From an uncultured Eubacteriales bacterium (GTDB taxonomy: Bacteria; Bacillota; Clostridia; Peptostreptococcales; Anaerovoracaceae): 46,711 bases of DNA. Location of the stretch: assembly GCA_902763505.1 (NCBI GenBank), contig CACWSO010000002.1, positions 1 through 46,711 of the forward strand, read 5' to 3'. The position numbers and the translations under genes were made by a program. The notes under the pieces were generated by a model. It ran no database searches. It worked only from the letters and a program-made list of their open reading frames with translations, and was not told the DNA's origin. Below, one piece after another: positions 8,100 through 31,307 of the stretch (the stretch's first letter is position 1; each line of letters opens with the position of its first letter).

Positions 8100-9554
8100 A
8101 TGGATTTTCTTGAGACAGTAAATAACAGAATAGAAGAGAACAGGACAGAGATGCTTTCATCTCTGTCCAAGCTTATATCCATCCCAAGCATTGCGATTAC
8201 TCCGGACACCGCAGAGAGTGCATCAGAAGGGGCGGCGATGCCATTTGGGGAAGACGTCGACCGGGCGTATCGGTTTATGTTCTCGCTCGGCGAAGACGAA
8301 GGCTTCACGACGTTTGATGCCGACGGTTACGGCGGTCACATCGACTACGACGGAACAGAGGATGGCGTCGTGGGAATTCTGGGCCATCTGGACGTCGTGC
8401 CGGAAGGGGCAGACTGGGATTTCGAACCCTATGGCGGTGAAATCGAAGACGGATATCTGCAGGGTCGCGGAACAATGGATGACAAAGGCCCGGTCATCGC
8501 GTCTTTTTATGCCATGAAGGCGTTGAAGGAGTGCGGGTTTGAACCGGCGAAGACAGTAAGACTGATACTCGGTCTCGATGAAGAGACGAACTGGGATGGA
8601 ATGAAATACTATCTGGAGTGCACACCGGATCTTCCGGATATAGGGTTTACTCCGGATGCAGACTTCCCGGTCATCAGAGCCGAGAAAGGCATCCTGACAT
8701 TCGACATCATTTCTAAATTCCCGAAGTCCAGAGGGAAAGGCCTTGAGCTCACTTCCATCACTGGCGGAACAGCACGCAATGCCGTGCCTGACTTTGCAAA
8801 GGCAGTCGTATACGACACCGCGGGAGGCGGTTACAGCTTCATTAAAGAGACGGTGGCGGGCTGCGCGGAAAAGAACGGATGGGACATAAGCTGCAGAGGC
8901 GCGGGAAGAAGTCTCGAGATTAGCGTGTCCGGAAAATCCGCCCACGCAGCGAAGCCAGAGCAGGGAGTGAACGCCATTTCCATTCTGATGGATTTTCTGG
9001 GACGGCTCACGTTCCTCAATGATGGGACTGCGGATTTCGTTGATTTCTACAATGATAGAATCGGCTATGATCTCCATGGGGAAAGAATCGGCTGTCCTTT
9101 GGAGGATGAAGATTCCGGAAAGCTCACATTTAATGTCTCTATGGTAGACGTTGACAAGAATACGGCGAAACTCACGATTAATGTCAGATATCCGGTCAGC
9201 TGCACAGGTGAGCAGGTTTATTCCGGCATCATGGAAGTGCTCGATGAATATGGATATGGCATCGTCAAAGGAATGGAAAAGCGGCCGATCAGCATCGATG
9301 CGGAATCTGAGCTCGTAACGACGCTGATGGAAGTGTATCAGAAGCATACAGGTGACACAGAGAACAAACCTCTCGTCATAGGCGGCGGCACGTACGCCCG
9401 TGCGATGGATAACATCGTTGCCTTTGGTGCGAGATTTCCAGGTGAGCCGGGGCTGGGTCACATGAAGAACGAGAAAATCTCAATAGATAACATGGTTCGC
9501 CTGGCAAAGATTTATGCAGAGGCTGTTTATGAACTGGCTAAGAAAGAAGATTGA
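8100..9554 (+). CDS. M20-family dipeptidase (PepV/Sapep-like)
   Basis: The 484-aa enzyme shows the M20 metallopeptidase residues in order: GHLDVVPEG with the first metal His and the following Asp, GRGTMDDKGP with the bridging Asp, LDEETNWDG with the catalytic and ligand Glu pair, a further Asp in TPDADFP, and GLGHMKNE with the last His ligand. Length and motif spacing fit PepV-type dipeptidases with a lid domain. It would hydrolyse dipeptides in the cytoplasm, which fits co-transcription with an amino-acid-type binding protein. Only a weak AAAGG precedes ATG 8100, so expression may depend on coupling. Its 3' end overlaps the start of the 3D-domain gene. Confidence 0.88.
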   Translation: MDFLETVNNRIEENRTEMLSSLSKLISIPSIAITPDTAESASEGAAMPFGEDVDRAYRFMFSLGEDEGFTTFDADGYGGHIDYDGTEDGVVGILGHLDVVPEGADWDFEPYGGEIEDGYLQGRGTMDDKGPVIASFYAMKALKECGFEPAKTVRLILGLDEETNWDGMKYYLECTPDLPDIGFTPDADFPVIRAEKGILTFDIISKFPKSRGKGLELTSITGGTARNAVPDFAKAVVYDTAGGGYSFIKETVAGCAEKNGWDISCRGAGRSLEISVSGKSAHAAKPEQGVNAISILMDFLGRLTFLNDGTADFVDFYNDRIGYDLHGERIGCPLEDEDSGKLTFNVSMVDVDKNTAKLTINVRYPVSCTGEQVYSGIMEVLDEYGYGIVKGMEKRPISIDAESELVTTLMEVYQKHTGDTENKPLVIGGGTYARAMDNIVAFGARFPGEPGLGHMKNEKISIDNMVRLAKIYAEAVYELAKKED

Positions 9555-10332
9555 CGAAAACAGAATGTTTTTCAAAGTTCTGGCCGCAGCCATCGGGTGC
9601 AACCTGATACTCATAGGACTTTTGGCTGCAGTCTCTGTTAGCGTGAAAGATATTACTGTCACAGTAAACGGCAAGACAGCTCAGTACAAGACCATTCGAA
9701 ATTCTGTAAGCGACATGCTCAGAGGCTGGGATGTCACGTTGAACGAGGAAGACGTCGTCAAACCCGGCATGAATGCAGCCCTGAAGGATGGAACAAATGT
9801 AAAAATAGACCTCTTTGAAGTCCGGAAGGAAACCGTATCGGAAGCCGTCGACTTCAAAACCAAGACGGAGTATACTTCGGATCTAATGGAAGGTGAAACG
9901 AAGGTCACGACGGAAGGTGTCAAAGGCGAGGATAAAGTGACTTACGAAATCACATATCTCGGAGGAATCGTACAAAGCCGTAAAGAAATCGCCAGGGAAA
10001 CAGTGAGCAAACCTGTAACGGAAGTCATTGCTGAGGGAACAGCCGTATCCTATGACGGTGTGAAATACAGCAGAATGATTACAGTTGTAGCAACAGGCTA
10101 TACGCACACAGGAAACAGAACGGCAACAGGTACGCGTCCTCACCGGGGGACCATGGCGGTTGACCGCAGCGTCATTGCAATGGGTTCTTACGGGTATGTA
10201 CCGGGTTACGGAGCGGTGCATGCTGAAGATACCGGCGGCGCCATCAAAGGCAACCGCATCGACTTGTTCTTTGAGACGAGAGGGCAGGCTGTTTCGTGGG
10301 GGCGCAGAACGGTCGATCTGTATATCAAATAA
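9529..10332 (+). CDS. Cell-wall-associated G5/3D-domain protein (YabE-like)
   Basis: The protein (267 aa) has one N-terminal transmembrane segment (about residues 15-37), a DUF348-like module beginning at ITVTVNGK, a G5 domain (about 110-165), and a C-terminal 3D domain with its three aspartates in AVDRS, AEDTGG and NRIDLFF. This is the arrangement of YabE/resuscitation-factor-like wall proteins, whose 3D fold resembles lytic transglycosylases of the MltA type; peptidoglycan cleavage is inferred. I chose ATG 9529 because AGAGG lies six bases before it; an in-frame ATG at 9514 has no good site. The start lies inside the end of the M20 gene. The operon terminator downstream is split by an IS insertion. 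Confidence 0.85.
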   Translation: MNWLRKKIDENRMFFKVLAAAIGCNLILIGLLAAVSVSVKDITVTVNGKTAQYKTIRNSVSDMLRGWDVTLNEEDVVKPGMNAALKDGTNVKIDLFEVRKETVSEAVDFKTKTEYTSDLMEGETKVTTEGVKGEDKVTYEITYLGGIVQSRKEIARETVSKPVTEVIAEGTAVSYDGVKYSRMITVVATGYTHTGNRTATGTRPHRGTMAVDRSVIAMGSYGYVPGYGAVHAEDTGGAIKGNRIDLFFETRGQAVSWGRRTVDLYIK

Positions 10333-10338
10333 AGACAT

Positions 10339-10353
10339 AAAAAGAGCGGTCAC
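10339..10353. terminator. Left arm of a bidirectional terminator split by an IS
   Basis: AAAAAGAGCGGTCAC here is perfectly complementary to GTGACCGCTCTTTTT at 11745-11759. Rejoined without the insertion sequence they form a 15-bp stem with loop GATT and T-tracts on both strands, which would terminate both the 3D-protein operon and the convergent alaX-like gene. The arms are now about 1.4 kb apart. Confidence 0.85.
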
Positions 10354-10360
10354 GATTGTG
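10351..10360. repeat. Left copy of 10-bp target duplication
   Basis: CACGATTGTG here is repeated exactly at 11738-11747 on the other side of the IS. It spans the former terminator apex: three stem bases, the GATT loop and three stem bases. If the element is instead taken to begin TGTGAA, the duplication would read CGATTG (10353-10358 and 11740-11745). Confidence 0.75.
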
Positions 10361-10397
10361 TGAACTTGTCAACTAAAAGTAGACAGTTCAAAAAGAG
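10361..10397 (+). repeat. IS3 terminal inverted repeat (transposase 3' side)
   Basis: The repeat begins TGAACTTGTC and ends TTCAAAAAGAG. It contains an internal palindrome, TGAACT pairing with AGTTCA and GTC pairing with GAC, around the conserved AAAAGTA core. Confidence 0.85.
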
Positions 10398-10407
10398 CAA
10401 ATCTCAA

Positions 10408-11211
10408 TCACAAGAACCCCAGATCAGTTCTATACTGAACTGGGGTTTTGTATTGTAGTGAGTATGCAGGTCTGTAATTGTTATAGTAATATACAAAGCT
10501 GTCTATCATTTCCTCGGGCGTATCAAACTGTCTGTGCCATCCTTCAGCATACATCTCTGCTTTTATCCACCCGTTTATCGCTTCGATCACACAATTGTCC
10601 GTAGGAGTACCAACGCGCGACATCGAGCGAATTATGTTATAATCTTTATGAGCATTGCAGAATGCTGCAGAGGAATAGACTGATCCTTGGTCGGTGTGCA
10701 AAGTGACTGGGTCTTTCTGTTCCTTTGTCATTTCTATGAGGTCTTCCAGGCAGTCATAATATGGCCTGTTATCTCCGGCTCGCTTTCCAATGTGGCTTGA
10801 AATGATTTCGTTATTGAATGTGTCCAGCAGATACGTCCACTCAAACTGTTTACCCTTATGTCTCATCACCGTCATATCCGAAGCCACAAGCTCAAGCGGC
10901 TGCCCGGCGTTCCATTTACATGCTACAAGATTAGGGAAAATCTTGCTTTCTTCCTTTGGCTTTTTCCATCTGTAGTGCTTAACATGTGCCTTTATTCCTG
11001 CATACTTGCAGCACTTATGTGCCAGATTGTCTGAGAAGATCAATCCCGTCTCCCTTCTGACTACTGCTGCGAGTCTGTGGTAACCGTACGAGCGGTGTCG
11101 TTCATGGACCTCAAACAATAGAGCTGTAAGATCGTCACGATACCTCTCATACTGGTTCTTGGTTCCTTGTCTTCGCTTCCATTTGTAGTATCCGGATCTG
11201 TTGACATCCAT
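10408..11211 (-). CDS. IS3-family transposase OrfB, DDE catalytic domain
   Basis: This frame encodes the rve-type integrase core. The DDE residues are visible as SDMTV, HTDQGS and, after about 35 residues, the Glu in CVIEAINGWIK. The first ATG in frame is at 11211 (267 aa), but the frame stays open upstream to the A7 tract at 11334-11328. It encodes there a typical OrfB lead-in (SEYEIIDKL, SVSELCRLM), so the product is most likely made as an OrfAB fusion of about 407 aa by -1 frameshifting. The fusion transposase would cut and join the IS ends. The last codons form a hairpin that may terminate incoming transcription. Confidence 0.92.
   Translation of the reverse strand: MDVNRSGYYKWKRRQGTKNQYERYRDDLTALLFEVHERHRSYGYHRLAAVVRRETGLIFSDNLAHKCCKYAGIKAHVKHYRWKKPKEESKIFPNLVACKWNAGQPLELVASDMTVMRHKGKQFEWTYLLDTFNNEIISSHIGKRAGDNRPYYDCLEDLIEMTKEQKDPVTLHTDQGSVYSSAAFCNAHKDYNIIRSMSRVGTPTDNCVIEAINGWIKAEMYAEGWHRQFDTPEEMIDSFVYYYNNYRPAYSLQYKTPVQYRTDLGFL
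10415..10449 (+). terminator. Hairpin at the transposase 3' end, T-tract on the plus strand
   Basis: AACCCCAG (10415-10422) pairs with CTGGGGTT (10440-10447), and TCAG (10424-10427) pairs with CTGA (10435-10438) around an A-A mismatch, followed by TTTTG. It could stop plus-strand transcripts that enter the IS from the 3D-protein operon, partly replacing the terminator the IS broke. On the minus strand the U-tract is poor. Confidence 0.55.
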
Positions 11212-11258
11212 GAGCCTGCAAAGCTCCGATACCGAGTATTCATCCTTCAGTTTGTCGA

Positions 11259-11630
11259 TTATTTCGTATTCAGATCTCTTAAAGTAACGAATTCCTTGCT
11301 TGCACCAACTCCTTTCACTACGTATCCTTTTTTTAACCGTTCGATCTCGATTTTCTGCTTCTCAACGATGAGTTTCAATCGCTGCTCTTCGGTGAGAGAT
11401 TTGCTTGTGGACAATGCCGCAAATGGATTGCCGGGCTTTTTCCTGTTTTCGAGTGCATCAGGTCCTCCCTCCAAATATTTTTGAATCCAGGAATGCACTT
11501 GTCCTCTGCTGATGTTTTCCTCTCTTGCAATCGTCTGTTGGCCAATTTTGTCATCCAGATTGCGAAGAACGACTCTGAGCTTTTCCTCTTTACTCCAGTT
11601 TCTGTTTTTTCCGCCTTTAGGTCTACCCAT
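11259..11630 (-). CDS. IS3-family transposase OrfA, helix-turn-helix protein
   Basis: The 123-aa protein starts MGRPKGGKNRNWSKEEK and has a helix-turn-helix (about residues 12-60, WSKEEKLRVVLR to GQVHSWIQKY) followed by a leucine-zipper-like helix (LTEEQRLKLIVEKQKIEIE). OrfA proteins of this family bind the IS ends and modulate transposition. Near its end, TTA AAA AAA GGA provides an A7 slippery tract (11334-11328). A -1 slip there leads into the open OrfB frame, giving the OrfAB transposase; the zero frame continues about 24 codons to its own stop at 11259. Confidence 0.9.
   Translation of the reverse strand: MGRPKGGKNRNWSKEEKLRVVLRNLDDKIGQQTIAREENISRGQVHSWIQKYLEGGPDALENRKKPGNPFAALSTSKSLTEEQRLKLIVEKQKIEIERLKKGYVVKGVGASKEFVTLRDLNTK
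11328..11334 (-). promoter_or_regulatory. A7 slippery site for programmed -1 frameshift
   Basis: Seven adenines on the minus strand are read A-AAA-AAA in the OrfA frame and followed by GG. OrfB lies in the -1 frame and is open from this point, with no stop between the tract and ATG 11211. This is the classical arrangement for OrfAB production in IS3 elements. Confidence 0.75.
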
Positions 11631-11700
11631 ATTTCCACCTCCGTTTTCATTTTACCAAAGAAAAAGCAGACACTCTTTCGAATGTCTGCTTGTGAGACGT

Positions 11701-11737
11701 CTCTTTTTGAAGTGTCTACTTTTGTTTTACCACTTCA
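11701..11737 (-). repeat. IS3 terminal inverted repeat (transposase 5' side)
   Basis: Read from the outside, it starts TGAAGTGGTAAAAC and ends ACACTTCAAAAAGAG. It matches the other end at 31 of 37 positions. The internal palindrome is TGAAGT with ACTTCA, where the other end has TGAACT with AGTTCA, so the paired bases change together. Confidence 0.85.
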
Positions 11738-11747
11738 CACGATTGTG
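11738..11747. repeat. Right copy of 10-bp target duplication
   Basis: CACGATTGTG, identical to 10351-10360. It includes the former terminator loop GATT. Confidence 0.75.
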
Positions 11748-11760
11748 ACCGCTCTTTTTT
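11745..11760. terminator. Right arm of the bidirectional terminator split by an IS
   Basis: GTGACCGCTCTTTTTT is the partner of the arm at 10339-10353. Its T-run overlaps the stop codon of the alaX-like gene (11759-11761), so this hairpin originally lay immediately behind that gene. Confidence 0.85.
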
Positions 11761-13012
11761 ATTGCAGATGTTTCTGCAGCAGATCGGCGAAGAGTGCCGC
11801 ATTCTCATCGTTTGTGAAGATGGCCCTCGCAGAGACATCGTTTCCGCCGCCTTTGCCCTGATAGAAGTTGGCGTATTCTTTGACCAGACTTCCGCATTTG
11901 ATTTCACCGTCGCTTACGAGAATGTAGGACGTTGCCGGTTTCGAATACAGCAGGATCAGTTTGCCTTTGCATCTCGGTTTGCCCATGTAGGACTTCGCCA
12001 TGTTGAATGCGTCATCCATGGAGAAGTGTTCCAGTGTATGGACGACAACATTTCCTTCCGCACTGTCAAGGGTTTCGTCCAGTGCAGCGCTTTCGATGTC
12101 GGTAAAAGCGTGCTTGAGCTGGATCAGCTCACCCTTTAGGTCGGCAGCTCTCTGCTCGAGGCCGCGGATCTTATCCGGGAAATCCTCCACGGAGGAAGAG
12201 TATTTGTTGGAGAGATCCGTAAGGATATTGTGTTTCATTTCGTAGTCTTCGAGGGCGCGGGCACCGGCTTCGAAATAGATGCGGAACATCTCCTTGTACT
12301 TTTCTACTTTGAATAATTTGATGATGCCCACCTGGCCTGCGGTTGATGGATGCGTACCGCAGCAAGCCACACAGTCAGCGGCATGTTCCGGGGAACCGAC
12401 GCACACGATGGAGATGTCTTCGTCAAAAGCAAGTTTCTTTCTGAGAGGCATTTTCTCGGCGTCTTCTCTGTTGTCGAAGCGGAAGACATATACAGGGGTG
12501 TTTGACCAGATTACTTCGTTCGCCAAGCGTTCGCAATGCTGCGCGATATCCCAATCGATCACAGAAGGTCTGCTTCTTTCCGGATTTGTCGGTTCGTCCT
12601 CCAGACTGATATCGATGGTCATGTAATCCTCACCCATGTGAAAACCGCGGTTCACGCCGCCACATTCCTGATAAAAGATTCCCGAAAGTATGTGTTCGCC
12701 GCAATGCCGCTGCATGTTATCAAAACGGCGCGGCCAGTCCAAAGTGCAGTGTACGGTGCAGCCTTCGCTGAGCCCCTCATAGGAAGAAAGCCTATGGATC
12801 ACGTCATCCCCGTCTTCCTGCACATCTATGACCTGCAATTCCAGTGCGTCTTTGCCGGCTGTCAGTACGCTTCCGAGGTCGCAGCTTTGTCCGCCGCCCT
12901 CCGGGAAGAAGGCAGTCTGGTCAAAAAAGATGCCGTTTTCGGTGATTTTGGTTACCGTTGCATCCCATTCTTTCGTATATACATCATGCTGGTATAATTT
13001 TGTTGTGCTCAT
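11759..13012 (-). CDS. Alanyl-tRNA editing protein, AlaX-like with DHHA1 domain
   Basis: The protein (417 aa) resembles the editing and C-terminal parts of alanyl-tRNA synthetase without the aminoacylation core. The zinc/catalytic ligands appear as HCGEHILS and later CCGTHPS, and the C-terminal DHHA1 region ends in YQGKGGGNDVSAR. It should deacylate mischarged Ser- or Gly-tRNA(Ala) in trans. The start at ATG 13012 has GAGGA about 10 nt upstream and gives MSTTKLYQHDVY, which matches the usual AlaX N-terminus. In-frame ATGs at 13048 and 13045 lie right at the predicted transcription start and could give a leaderless, N-terminally extended form. Its terminator is split by the IS element. Confidence 0.88.
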   Translation of the reverse strand: MSTTKLYQHDVYTKEWDATVTKITENGIFFDQTAFFPEGGGQSCDLGSVLTAGKDALELQVIDVQEDGDDVIHRLSSYEGLSEGCTVHCTLDWPRRFDNMQRHCGEHILSGIFYQECGGVNRGFHMGEDYMTIDISLEDEPTNPERSRPSVIDWDIAQHCERLANEVIWSNTPVYVFRFDNREDAEKMPLRKKLAFDEDISIVCVGSPEHAADCVACCGTHPSTAGQVGIIKLFKVEKYKEMFRIYFEAGARALEDYEMKHNILTDLSNKYSSSVEDFPDKIRGLEQRAADLKGELIQLKHAFTDIESAALDETLDSAEGNVVVHTLEHFSMDDAFNMAKSYMGKPRCKGKLILLYSKPATSYILVSDGEIKCGSLVKEYANFYQGKGGGNDVSARAIFTNDENAALFADLLQKHLQ

Positions 13013-13052
13013 TGTTTCTAGTTCCTCTATAGACCGCAATAACATCATGGAG

Positions 13053-13081
13053 AGTGTACTGCCTTCCCGCAAAAAAGTCAA
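13053..13081 (-). promoter_or_regulatory. Promoter of the alaX-like gene
   Basis: TTGACT (13081-13076), 17 nt, then TACACT (13058-13053) on the minus strand. The predicted start near 13046 yields either a leader of about 35 nt with GAGGA for ATG 13012, or a leaderless message beginning at the ATGATG at 13048-13043. Confidence 0.65.
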
Positions 13082-13334
13082 ACAATATGCATAAACGCAT
13101 GAAAAACACGGCAACATTATTGAATTGTCGTGCAAATTAGTAGTATAATTAACAATCATAGTGATTTATTTGCGGTTGCATTAGGGTTTTCAGATTTTTA
13201 CAGTAAAGATTTTACAAAAAGCCGAAAAACCGCAGAAAATCCACGTTTTCAGGGGTTTTGCCTTGAAGATGAAATAATTCTATCAATTCCTGTGGAAAAC
13301 CTTGTATCTCATTTTAAACTTGACAGCTGAAACC

Positions 13335-29022: not shown

Positions 29023-30098
29023 TTGCTGTAGTAGGTGCAGTATTGGTGGAAGTCGATGTGAGACTGATGCCGCCGAAGCGTGACGTGGAACTGCAGAAGA
29101 AGCAGGATGAAGAAGCGCTGCGTCAGGCAGGAATCGATCCGGCGGGCAATGACAGGAGCGCCGGCGGACAGAAATTGGAAGGTTTCAGTCAGTATTACGA
29201 ACGCACCATGCGCCAGCAGGCGAGTGAAAATTACTGGAACGAGGTCGGAGCGGGCGGAAACCAATTCGGCGGCTACGACCCTGTTGTTGCAGAGAAAGAT
29301 ACAGAAATCCGCGTTTCGAACAGCGGATGCGCGTACAATGTCGCCAGGTATCTGGCGTCTGACCACAAAAAAGAGGTAGCGTTCCTGTCGGTGGTCGGTG
29401 ACGATGCCTTTGGACTGGCGGCGAGATGTGAACTGGAGAACGCCGGCGTGGATACCGCAGGAATCAAAGTGACAGCCTGCAGCACGCCTGTGTCTGTGGA
29501 AATCCACAATATTATAGGAGAGCTGCAGTTCCAGAGAGAGAACAGCACCGCAATGGAGATGCTGACGCCGCAGATGATCGATGAATGCGCGGCGATCCTG
29601 GAAGAAGCGGATGCGATCGTGGTGGATGGAACCGTTCCGGCGGAAACGCTGAACTACATCTCTGATCGATACTCCGACAAAAGCAGGATATTCTTTGATC
29701 CGGGTTCGATCGCAGGCGGAAGCAGGTTTGCGGAATCCAAGCTGAAGGCATACTGCGTCCTGCCGGGAAGAATGGAGGCAGAAGCAATGAGCGGGCAGCA
29801 GGTTCTCGGAATGGACCAGCTCATGGCCGCCGGCGATGCCTTTGAGGAGCGCGGCGTGGAGAGAGTGATCATCACCCTGAAGGGCGGCGGACTCTATTAT
29901 AAGGAAGGAACACAATCCGGCCTGATCAAACCGGAGCGGAAGCTGACCTTCGCGGAGACGAAGGGTGCAGGTGATGTGCTGACTGCGGCAGTCGTCGCAG
30001 CAAGCAAAGGAGAAGAAAAACTGGAAGTGGCTGCTGGCGCTGGAATGGAAGCGGCAGCGGAGTTTCTAAAGGATGTAATAGATGAGAGGCCGTATTAA
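29019..30098 (+). CDS. PfkB-family (ribokinase-like) sugar/nucleoside kinase with an insertion
   Basis: The 359-aa protein has the PfkB core: SNSGCAYNVARYLA near the substrate site, FLSVVGDDAFG, and the anion-hole/catalytic motif TKGAGDVLTAA near the C-terminus with the base Asp. Some PfkB members next to nucleoside kinases are pseudouridine kinases, which would fit this pairing, but specificity is not proven. Between the first strand (MIAVVGAVLVEVDV) and the SNSGCA motif there is an extra hydrophilic stretch of about 55 residues (about 18-75). AGGAGGGAG lies upstream at a rather long spacing, and the ATG overlaps the preceding stop codon. Confidence 0.84.
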   Translation: MIAVVGAVLVEVDVRLMPPKRDVELQKKQDEEALRQAGIDPAGNDRSAGGQKLEGFSQYYERTMRQQASENYWNEVGAGGNQFGGYDPVVAEKDTEIRVSNSGCAYNVARYLASDHKKEVAFLSVVGDDAFGLAARCELENAGVDTAGIKVTACSTPVSVEIHNIIGELQFQRENSTAMEMLTPQMIDECAAILEEADAIVVDGTVPAETLNYISDRYSDKSRIFFDPGSIAGGSRFAESKLKAYCVLPGRMEAEAMSGQQVLGMDQLMAAGDAFEERGVERVIITLKGGGLYYKEGTQSGLIKPERKLTFAETKGAGDVLTAAVVAASKGEEKLEVAAGAGMEAAAEFLKDVIDERPY

Positions 30099-30126
30099 GC
30101 CGGCACAATATACAGGAGGATAACCA

Positions 30127-30771
30127 ATGAAAACAGATAATATCAGCAAAGGCAATAAAGTCAAAATCGAGACGGTCATCAAAGCCCTCGAGAAGAGAGG
30201 CATGAAGGGCTACTATGCGGAAGACGGCGAGGAAGCCCTGAAGATGATTCTTGAAATGATTCCGGAAGGGTCCTCTGTTGGCAGGGGAGGCAGTGAGACG
30301 CTGAACCAGATGGGTGTGTTCGAAGAACTTAACAAGGGCAACTATACGACGTATGAACCATTCAAAGAACCGGATCCGGAAAAAGGTAAGGCAATCAGAC
30401 GTGCCATTTTCTCAGCGGACTTCATGTTGACCAGCGCCAACGCCATCACCTTGGACGGTGAAATCGTCAACATCGACGGTACCGGCAACAGAGTTGCACC
30501 GATTATCTGGGGACCGGATAAGGTCATTTTCGTCATAGGCGCCAAGAAGATCGCCAGAGATGTGCATGCAGCCATCGCCAGAATCAAGTGTGATGCCTGT
30601 CCGCCGAACTGCATCAGGCTCGGCAAGAACACGCCGTGCGCCATCACCGGCAAGTGCGGCAACTGTCTGTCTCCGGGCAATACCGTCTGCTGCCACACTG
30701 TTATCACAAGGTATTCCAGCATTGTTGACCGTATGCATGTGATTCTGGTCAATGAGGATTTGGGATTCTAA
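30127..30771 (+). CDS. LUD-domain protein (lactate-utilisation LutC-like family)
   Basis: The 214-aa protein is a single LUD (DUF162) domain, recognisable by SSVGRGGSETLNQMG, SADFMLTSANAIT, DGEIVNIDGTGNRVAP and PDKVIFVIGAKKI. Such proteins occur with lactate oxidation systems (LutABC) or alone. The C-terminal half has a cysteine-rich stretch (about residues 158-192, CDACPPNC, CAITGKCGNC, CC), which could bind metal or a cluster, an inference. AGGAGG is 7 nt before ATG 30127. It lies 28 nt behind the PfkB gene on the same strand and ends at a terminator, so it is probably last in that operon. No LutA/B partner is seen. Confidence 0.86.
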   Translation: MKTDNISKGNKVKIETVIKALEKRGMKGYYAEDGEEALKMILEMIPEGSSVGRGGSETLNQMGVFEELNKGNYTTYEPFKEPDPEKGKAIRRAIFSADFMLTSANAITLDGEIVNIDGTGNRVAPIIWGPDKVIFVIGAKKIARDVHAAIARIKCDACPPNCIRLGKNTPCAITGKCGNCLSPGNTVCCHTVITRYSSIVDRMHVILVNEDLGF

Positions 30772-30813
30772 ATCGACTTTCTGATTCATCAGGAAAACAC
30801 AATACAAAACCGT

Positions 30814-30875
30814 AAACCTTCAAATCAGTACTATTATTACTATTATATAGTCGGAATCTGAAGGTTTTTCTTTTT
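30814..30875 (+). terminator. Terminator of the kinase-LUD operon
   Basis: AAACCTTCA (30814-30822) pairs with TGAAGGTTT (30859-30867) and runs into TTTTTCTTTTT. The loop is long, about 36 nt and AT-rich. Confidence 0.7.
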
Positions 30876-30917
30876 GAAAAACTGCAGATATAGTGTGTAT
30901 TTCGCTTTATTTCCAAA

Positions 30918-30990
30918 GGAAGGGGTACATCTAGTGGTAGGAGTGGGCACACTGTATAGAGTGTGCGCGCTTTAACTCCTGCAGCCCTTG
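30918..30990. other. Unassigned structured element upstream of the S10 promoter
   Basis: Three nested pairings are visible: AAGGG (30920-30924) with CCCTT (30985-30989), AGGAGT (30939-30944) with ACTCCT (30975-30980), and GCACACT (30947-30953) with AGTGTGC (30960-30966) around the loop GTATAG. Total size is about 70 nt. TCTAGTGGTAGGA looks like a tRNA D-arm, but no T-loop or CCA-proximal pattern fits, so this is not called a tRNA. It lies between the LUD terminator and the S10 promoter, outside both transcripts as predicted. A small RNA or a relic are possible. Confidence 0.4.
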
Positions 30991-31044
30991 ATATGACTGG
31001 TTTTAGCCTGTTTGAAAAACATAAAAAATAATCGAAAAAAGTGC

Positions 31045-31073
31045 TTGATTTTATCAGGGGCTTTTGTTATGAT
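31045..31073 (+). promoter_or_regulatory. Promoter of the S10 ribosomal operon
   Basis: TTGATT (31045-31050), 17 nt, TATGAT (31068-31073) preceded by TGT. The predicted start is around 31080. It is the only clear promoter I see for the ribosomal block, though internal ones cannot be excluded. Confidence 0.7.
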
Positions 31074-31079
31074 GTTAGA

Positions 31080-31307
31080 GCTTGTGTAAGGCGAAGAAGT
31101 GGGAAGTTACCGCGCTATCGGAGAATTTCCACCGAGAATTGTCCCCACATTGATCGGGGGCGAAGGGATTCGCTGAATTTTTCATGTGCGTCGGTACATG
31201 GAAACACACAAGGGCGTGTACGGAGTCAAAGACATACGGCGTCTGCGAGCGAACCCCTTGTACAAGCATAGCGAAAACTGTACTAAAGCAAGTTATAGGA
31301 GGAAAAA
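31080..31307 (+). ncRNA. Long structured 5' leader of the S10 operon
   Basis: The leader is about 228 nt and has several local stems: CCCC/GGGG around 31143-31159, GCGAA/TTCGC (31160-31173) followed by TGAATTTTT, CATGT/ACATG (31183-31200), and ACAAGGG/CCCTTGT (31208-31214 with 31255-31261). S10 operons in several bacteria are controlled by L4 binding to such a leader. This leader could do the same, but I do not recognise a defined L4 site. The ribosome-binding site AGGAGG ends the leader. Confidence 0.5.

Follow-up and report, generated by a model that had tools for sequence, protein, structure and literature searches.

The window examined here, a stretch of 46,711 nucleotides (nt) from contig CACWSO010000002.1 of an uncultured Eubacteriales bacterium, carries a 1377-bp insertion sequence (IS) of the IS3 family, TGAA...TTCA, at positions 10361..11737. 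Its transposase genes lie on the minus strand, and its ends were placed from matches to copies elsewhere. The element interrupts the apex of a terminator-like hairpin, and 10 bp of that hairpin are present on both of its sides. It probably belongs to an IS3-family clade in which the transposase picks out intrinsic terminators through their symmetric structure. Most insertions of the clade are centred on the axis of symmetry of a stem-loop that has A/T tracts, the cuts fall about equally far out on both sides, and the sequence between the cuts is duplicated. This pattern, which recurs in relatives of the element from numerous bacteria, those of the gut among them, suggests that what marks a landing site is mirror symmetry of shape, and not any fixed sequence.

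At the window locus, the left arm of the broken terminator, AAAAAGAGCGGT, consists of an A-tract and GAGCGGT (10339..10350, plus strand). It is followed by the left copy of the target duplication, CACGATTGTG (10351..10360, plus strand), which is made up of three stem, four loop and three stem bases and was identified from the sequence and from the pairing of ends. On the other side of the element, the right copy of CACGATTGTG (11738..11747, plus strand) leads into the right arm, ACCGCTCTTTTTT, with ACCGCTC and a T-tract (11748..11760, plus strand). When the element and one CACGATTGTG are removed, the site rejoins as AAAAAGAGCGGTCAC-GATT-GTGACCGCTCTTTTTT, which by its sequence looks like a bidirectional terminator. 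The element has the TG...CA termini of the IS3 type (TGAA...TTCA). IS3 elements usually duplicate 3-5 bp of their target, a length that is customary and not strictly defining; the 10 bp found here do not match it.

The initial annotation had placed an IS3 element at 10361-11737, at a hairpin apex and with a 10-bp duplication, and had added a second possibility, a start at TGTGAA with a duplication of 6 bp. Both lengths are allowed alike by the window sequence and by the empty site described below, and the choice was settled by comparing ends. A BLAST search over 61 genomes showed that the matches to copies elsewhere that reach an element end mostly start at 10360/10361 and stop at 11737/11738; the bases preceding TGAA vary between copies at different sites. 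The duplication is 10 bp because the shared sequence of the copies begins only at TGAA, and the TGTGAA ends are ruled out; the coordinates given above hold. The idea that the 10-bp repeats are a chance feature of the palindrome, around a true duplication of 6 bp, is permitted by the window sequence when taken by itself, but it is refuted by the copies elsewhere, which are alike only from TGAA inward.

The annotation had also proposed looking for the intact hairpin in relatives lacking the insertion, and it was found in the sibling species G013 (L138). There, the same two flanking genes, with proteins 94% and 92% identical to those of the window, enclose an unoccupied site with a single CACGATTGTG and both terminator arms intact. 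Its hairpin, GCGGTCAC-GATT-GTGACCGC, reads GGCGGTCACGATTGTGACCGCTTG and is flanked by A6 and T5. For two further insertion sites of the window's genome, both of a type with 15-bp duplications, the orthologous place in siblings likewise contains an uninterrupted hairpin; at one of them, changes are seen by eye on both arms with the pairing preserved. Empty hairpin sites were present at all three loci examined, that is, the window locus and these two. In another sibling, G014, an IS of a different type occupies the place corresponding to one of the two further loci (L252). Downstream of the G014 counterpart of the right flanking gene, which we take to be AlaX-like, an end-like sequence of yet another type cuts, as judged by eye, a terminator-like half-site (L141). 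L252 and L141 are apparently parallel hits. It was also observed in G013 that the last 28 codons of the AlaX-like gene are repeated beside the empty site, just past the gene (G013:C120:29648-29731 and 29828-31087; 96% identical to the window's protein).

Other copies were sought by running a degenerate pattern of both element ends against 49 genomes of the genus, which gave 79 element ends in 13 genomes. At least three of these ends (L074, L100, L101) probably lie outside the clade and were retained in the A-tract count. Ends were paired within each genome by an exact common duplication of at least 6 bp; of the 23 exact pairs obtained, one joining two same-type ends was dropped and 22 were kept. 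The like-ended pair L064/L066 enters no site count, nor do L073/L075 and L125/L132, where about 15 bp with one mismatch were recognised by eye. Most of the data are metagenome assemblies, with one genome per species, and many genus sites were joined from two contig ends via the duplication. The stem score reached at least 10 in 20 of the 22 joined sites, and the duplications measured 6-16 bp, with lengths that differ by subfamily. Duplications are 6-10 bp long at the 8 sites of the window type and 15-16 bp at the 5 sites of a second type, four of which belong to the window's genome. Three more types have 3 sites each, with 8-11 bp in the G014 type, 11 bp in the G021 type and 6 bp in the G067/G068 type. 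An A-run of at least four was present at the expected 6-24 nt from 70 of the 79 ends, as against 109 of 1560 control placements. By eye, the stem and loop sequences differ among the 22 sites, and a single repeated palindromic target of the IS1397 type was not found in them.

Some individual copies in the genus deserve mention. L072 (G013) and L078 (G064) have, by eye, alike flanks next to opposite IS ends; one terminator was apparently hit independently, in opposite orientations, in two sibling species. L096 (G067) and L111 (G016) display the same insertion junction, differing in one of the 45 bases compared, and since this junction is common to two species, the insertion was inherited or exchanged. 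In a complete copy in G014 (L060/L061; G014:C36:8963-10340), the two flanks come from different terminators, and one of these finds its partner on another contig (L062); this reflects either recombination between copies or an assembly join.

Beyond the genus, a scan with an alignment of OrfB, the integrase-core protein of the element, over genome contigs of 84,980 species yielded at least 474 relatives, of which the best 80 were kept. Among these best 80, the carriers belong to the Clostridia (Mogibacterium, Lachnospira, Oscillospiraceae), the Erysipelotrichaceae (Erysipelotrichia), the Bacilli and the Tenericutes, and include Erysipelothrix aquatica VA92-K48 and the Tenericutes strain MO-XQ (complete chromosome). 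In plasmids, the best match had 37.6% identity (a Tenericutes plasmid) and in phages 41.3%, amid many distant IS3 matches. Together with the 22 genus sites, 45 copies from the best 80 form a set of 67 sites; loci lacking two ends or having weak repeats or an odd length were left unused, as were L166 and L174, which repeat genus copies. A duplication of at least 4 bp, ranging from 4 to 16 bp, was present in 54 of the 67. RNA folding gave, in 48 of these 54, a hairpin of 5 bp or more with the centre of its loop no more than 2 nt from the duplication centre; among windows taken from the same flanks this was so in 54 of 535 (Fisher p ~4e-35), which excludes chance at the family level. The two centres coincide within 0.5 nt in 43 of the 54. 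A simpler DNA stem score picked out 48 of the 67 sites and 4 of 381 controls.

In the initial end-calling, the duplication had formed part of the score, and the procedure was repeated blindly from the end motif alone. Both ends were then recovered in 46 of the 80 loci, with a duplication of at least 4 bp in 34; 31 of these 34 were hairpin-centred, and 32 were either centred or placed between symmetric tracts. Other copies of the same and related elements, which the annotation had suggested collecting, thus sit in hairpins with long, centred duplications and not in random sites with 3-4 bp repeats. The targeting rule is a property of a clade and not of one element. As a separate observation, L192 is inserted in a long perfect palindrome with 22 bp per arm, and half of a like palindrome flanks the element L181 in another genome; this palindrome may be a repeat family of its own.

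Control elements were treated in the same way. They comprised 36 copies in ten groups of other IS3-family elements, taken from long contigs within the same order, and ends were obtained for 31 of the copies. Their duplications measured 3-4 bp in 18 of the 31 and less than 3 bp in the other 13. Only one of the 18 with 3-4 bp was hairpin-centred. Over all controls the count was 7 of 31, six of these having duplications of 0 or 2 bp and less sure ends. In the OrfB tree, the clade (33 rows, picked by similarity) stands apart from 19 other IS3 OrfB rows with full support; 21 control loci have no row in the tree, and only L306, L318 and L330 overlap with the control copies used for the duplications. 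Two other IS3-type elements, L312-L314 (G114) and L321-L324 (G152), with ends TGATATGTACCCC and TGTACTGCACCCC, have mostly 3-4 bp duplications. Several of their copies lie, by eye, inside large-loop palindromes ending in T-runs, some of them similar in sequence, and these elements are perhaps another palindrome-targeting group.

Most cuts were located 4-7 nt inward of the A/T tracts at the hairpin base, and longer stems went with longer duplications. Of 108 duplication edges, 104 have an A-run of at least three no more than 16 nt 5' of the cut. The gap from A-run to cut is 4-7 nt in 84 of these 104 and has no correlation with duplication length (r = -0.16). Symmetric tracts with gaps of 3-8 flank 38 of the 54 sites, compared to 27 of 2100 random placements. 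For the 32 clean sites, regression gave a duplication length of 0.66 loop + 1.27 (+-0.22) stem - 3.7 (R2 0.66). The cut seems to be measured mainly from the hairpin base, that is, the A/T tract, and not from the loop. A ruler set on the loop, with a fixed number of stem bases beside it, was less constant (standard deviation 2.0, against 1.3 for the base ruler), although this does not exclude it cleanly. The interpretation in the initial annotation, of staggered cuts on either side of the apex and a long, loop-centred duplication, is supported; to be added to it are the range of lengths, 4-16 bp, and a cut that seems to be set mainly from the base. Duplication of the whole loop at the window site results from the stem length and is not itself the rule. 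No obvious sequence motif was seen at the cut over the 108 edges; the duplication seldom starts with T (7 of 108).

Besides its target, the element carries two hairpins of its own that resemble terminators and face inward. The hairpin scan placed one at the OrfB end, overlapping the last OrfB codons (10414..10448, plus strand), with its pairing kept in 18 relatives, and the other at the OrfA end (11664..11691, minus strand). The former would stop transcripts entering from the left gene and the latter those from the right gene. Among clade elements, an inward hairpin with a T-run was present at 21 of 29 OrfA ends and 26 of 29 OrfB ends, as against 12 of 290 internal stretches; at the three OrfB ends that missed, inspection by eye also reveals TTTT and a hairpin, the stem of which is imperfect. 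Covariation was assessed on 18 of 27 OrfB-end stretches. Near-duplicates were omitted along with L178, L194, L197, L199 and L223, which differ in length or pairing, and this choice favours structure. In this set 96.4% of cells pair, cells with a double change number 30 against 10.4 in shuffles, and the covariation score is 0.416 against 0.210. These hairpins by themselves suggest that the element may replace the host terminator that it breaks.

From these features a possible course of insertion can be proposed. The transposase would recognise the inverted repeat of the target, most likely in the form of an extruded cruciform or of the two hairpins that make it up. The 3' ends of the IS would then each attack one hairpin in its 5' arm, roughly half a helical turn from the base and about 4-7 nt inward of the A/T tract, and the two cuts would be symmetric because the hairpin arms are mirror images. 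Gap repair would then copy the apex and part of the stem. The host terminator would be left broken, and the inward-facing hairpins near both IS ends would stop both convergent host transcripts, making the insertion tolerable and shielding the transposase from outside transcription. The proposal in its full form is that an entire IS3 clade, with members in Clostridia, Erysipelotrichia, Bacilli and Tenericutes, has specialised in intrinsic terminators, reads them as an extruded cruciform and attacks the arms at a nearly constant distance from the base, which gives symmetric duplications of variable length; each element would then swap in two inward-facing terminators of its own and remain almost neutral. 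It is plausible, and is put forward tentatively.

The main rival to selection by structure is that the transposase sees a pair of inverted A-tracts in ordinary duplex DNA and makes one cut per strand, about 6 nt to the 3' side of an A-tract; the hairpin would be incidental, as it is at terminators that inverted A/T tracts occur. This would explain the gap of 4-7 nt and its independence of duplication length, as well as four sites (L118/L112, L129/L123, L130/L124 and L179) at which the hairpin is weak, absent or off-centre and the tracts are near-symmetric. However, in 8 of the 11 sites where the hairpin axis and the tract midpoint are at least 1.5 nt apart, the cut centre is nearer the axis, and L208 and L218 are hairpin-centred with one side having no tract within 16 nt. 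The present data weaken this explanation, which we regard as unlikely. Rather less likely still is a target in the form of terminator RNA or of DNA opened by transcription, such as a non-template-strand hairpin at a paused polymerase, in place of a duplex cruciform. Most targets do resemble terminators, and the stem of L186 depends on G-T pairs, as would suit such a target; against this, both strands are cut symmetrically, and no orientation bias relative to the tracts appeared among 48 sites (23, 20 and 5 ties). Random insertion with survival only in intergenic terminators is very improbable. Such places are safe, and the inward hairpins would soften insertions there, but selection of this kind would not give centring within 0.5 nt in 43 of 54 sites. 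It would also not stretch the duplication from 3-4 bp to 4-16 bp, a change that is absent from other IS3 elements in the same order. In its plain form, random insertion followed by selection alone is refuted by the centring and the duplication lengths.

Several results weigh against selection by structure and the mechanism built on it. Recognition of A-tracts in plain duplex predicts much the same picture as the putative extrusion of a cruciform. In 3 of the 11 discordant sites the cuts follow the tract midpoint and not the hairpin axis, and the stem slope of 1.27 falls between the value of 0 predicted by a loop ruler and that of 2 predicted by a base ruler. The centring test was failed by 6 of the 54 sites, namely the four with poor hairpins and also L205 and L216, and about 10% of the control windows pass it. 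Under blind end-calling, 12 of 46 copies had a duplication shorter than 4 bp or none, 6 of the 12 not being hairpin-centred and 6 still being so. The window locus in the other siblings has unrelated hairpins or none evident. As to the hairpins carried by the element, comparable ones occur at 3 of 8 OrfA ends and 1 of 8 OrfB ends of other IS3 elements. At the OrfB end, two of the five covariation measures are not above shuffles: 5 pairs have a double change (4.0 in shuffles), and there are 11 further pair types (11.3 in shuffles). A scan of the whole region 9500-13100 gave 6 terminator-like sites, where shuffles gave 3.8 (standard deviation 2.3).

Judged by its transposase, the window element is a member of the IS3 family. 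OrfA, a helix-turn-helix protein of 123 amino acids (11259..11630, minus strand), matches Pfam HTH_28, HTH_29, HTH_23 and HTH_Tnp_1. OrfB, counted from its first ATG, has 267 amino acids (10408..11211, minus strand) and an rve/DDE integrase core, with profile matches to rve, rve_2 and rve_3; it scores 178.6 bits against the IS3 model NF033516 (cut-off 160). Its D112, D174 and E210, presumably the catalytic triad, are identical in all of four relatives. IS30 models were absent among the Pfam and NCBIfam matches of the transposase (E 0.001). The OrfB frame stays open upstream to at least 11346, and a run of A7 followed by GG (11328..11334, minus strand) is a candidate site at which a -1 frameshift may link OrfA with OrfB. 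The terminal repeats read TGAACTTGTCAACTAAAAGTAGACA on the OrfB side (10361..10385, plus strand) and TGAAGTGGTAAAACAAAAGTAGACA on the OrfA side (11713..11737, minus strand). Both neighbouring genes converge on the insertion site: on the left a gene for a 3D/G5-domain protein (9514..10332, plus strand), and on the right one for an alanyl-tRNA-synthetase-related protein (11759..13024, minus strand), for which 13024 is a chosen start, the mechanical open reading frame extending to 13159. Positions 1-98 of the window, at the contig end, are the interior of another element of the same clade, of the 15-16 bp type (L005/L119), whose other junction is L131.

A fixed stagger between the cuts in the two target strands is usual for DDE transposases. 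In the present clade the stagger ranges from 4 to 16 bp and is nevertheless centred on a structure, which makes this group a tractable model of how an enzyme with the retroviral integrase fold may be guided to its target by structure. Intrinsic terminators are abundant, non-coding landing sites without a fixed sequence, and the rule could guide gene delivery. The same rule predicts the places in a genome where such elements would land, and it explains why contigs break at terminators in several draft genomes of the present set.

A published exception to the fixed stagger is IS1630 of Mycoplasma fermentans, an IS30-family element for which duplications of 16, 23, 25 and 26 bp are given for four copies (PMC3317919). 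Going by the title of the paper by Calcutt et al., it is a precedent for duplicated inverted repeats of variable length; the comparison draws on that title and these lengths, and its transposase is of the IS30 family, unlike the IS3-type enzyme described here. In staphylococci, IS1272 and TnSha1 of the IS1182 family are described as targeting stem-loops, several of them confirmed terminators, without primary sequence specificity (PMC4923244, PMC5678879). According to the available text, these elements delete or replace the stem-loop with no duplication, whereas the present clade keeps the hairpin halves and duplicates the apex. Stem-loop deletion of the IS1272/IS1182 type was not encountered at the window site, where a duplication is present and the empty site is accounted for. 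In the model outlined in PMC5678879, attack at 5' positions leads to duplication of either the loop or the entire stem-loop, and the present clade falls between these alternatives.

Within the IS3 family, IS1397, ISKpn1 and ISPsy8 are reported to insert in palindromic units (REP/BIME), ISPsy8 at the symmetry axis of a predicted hairpin with 3 bp duplicated (PMC1525189). As far as that account goes, they are tied to the REP sequences of their hosts, whereas the targets of the present clade vary by site and the duplications span 4-16 bp; the likeness of IS1397 to the window element is at the level of the family. IS1447, an IS3-family element whose group is enriched in Firmicutes, has ends starting with TA, duplications of 3-4 bp and +1 slippage, and no terminator targeting is described for it in the available text of PMC6211511. 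An ISSau8-like element of Staphylococcus aureus subsp. anaerobius is mostly intergenic, with its own terminators near both ends; terminator targeting is not stated in the corresponding portion of PMC8171923. The open-access literature covered, which is without ISfinder and most subscription papers and was available partly in excerpt, held no IS3 clade that targets terminators generally with centred duplications of 4-16 bp, and PMC3196728, PMC2828477 and PMC9333248 yielded nothing on it either. Each part of the behaviour described here has a precedent, in IS1630, in IS1272 and in IS1397/ISPsy8.

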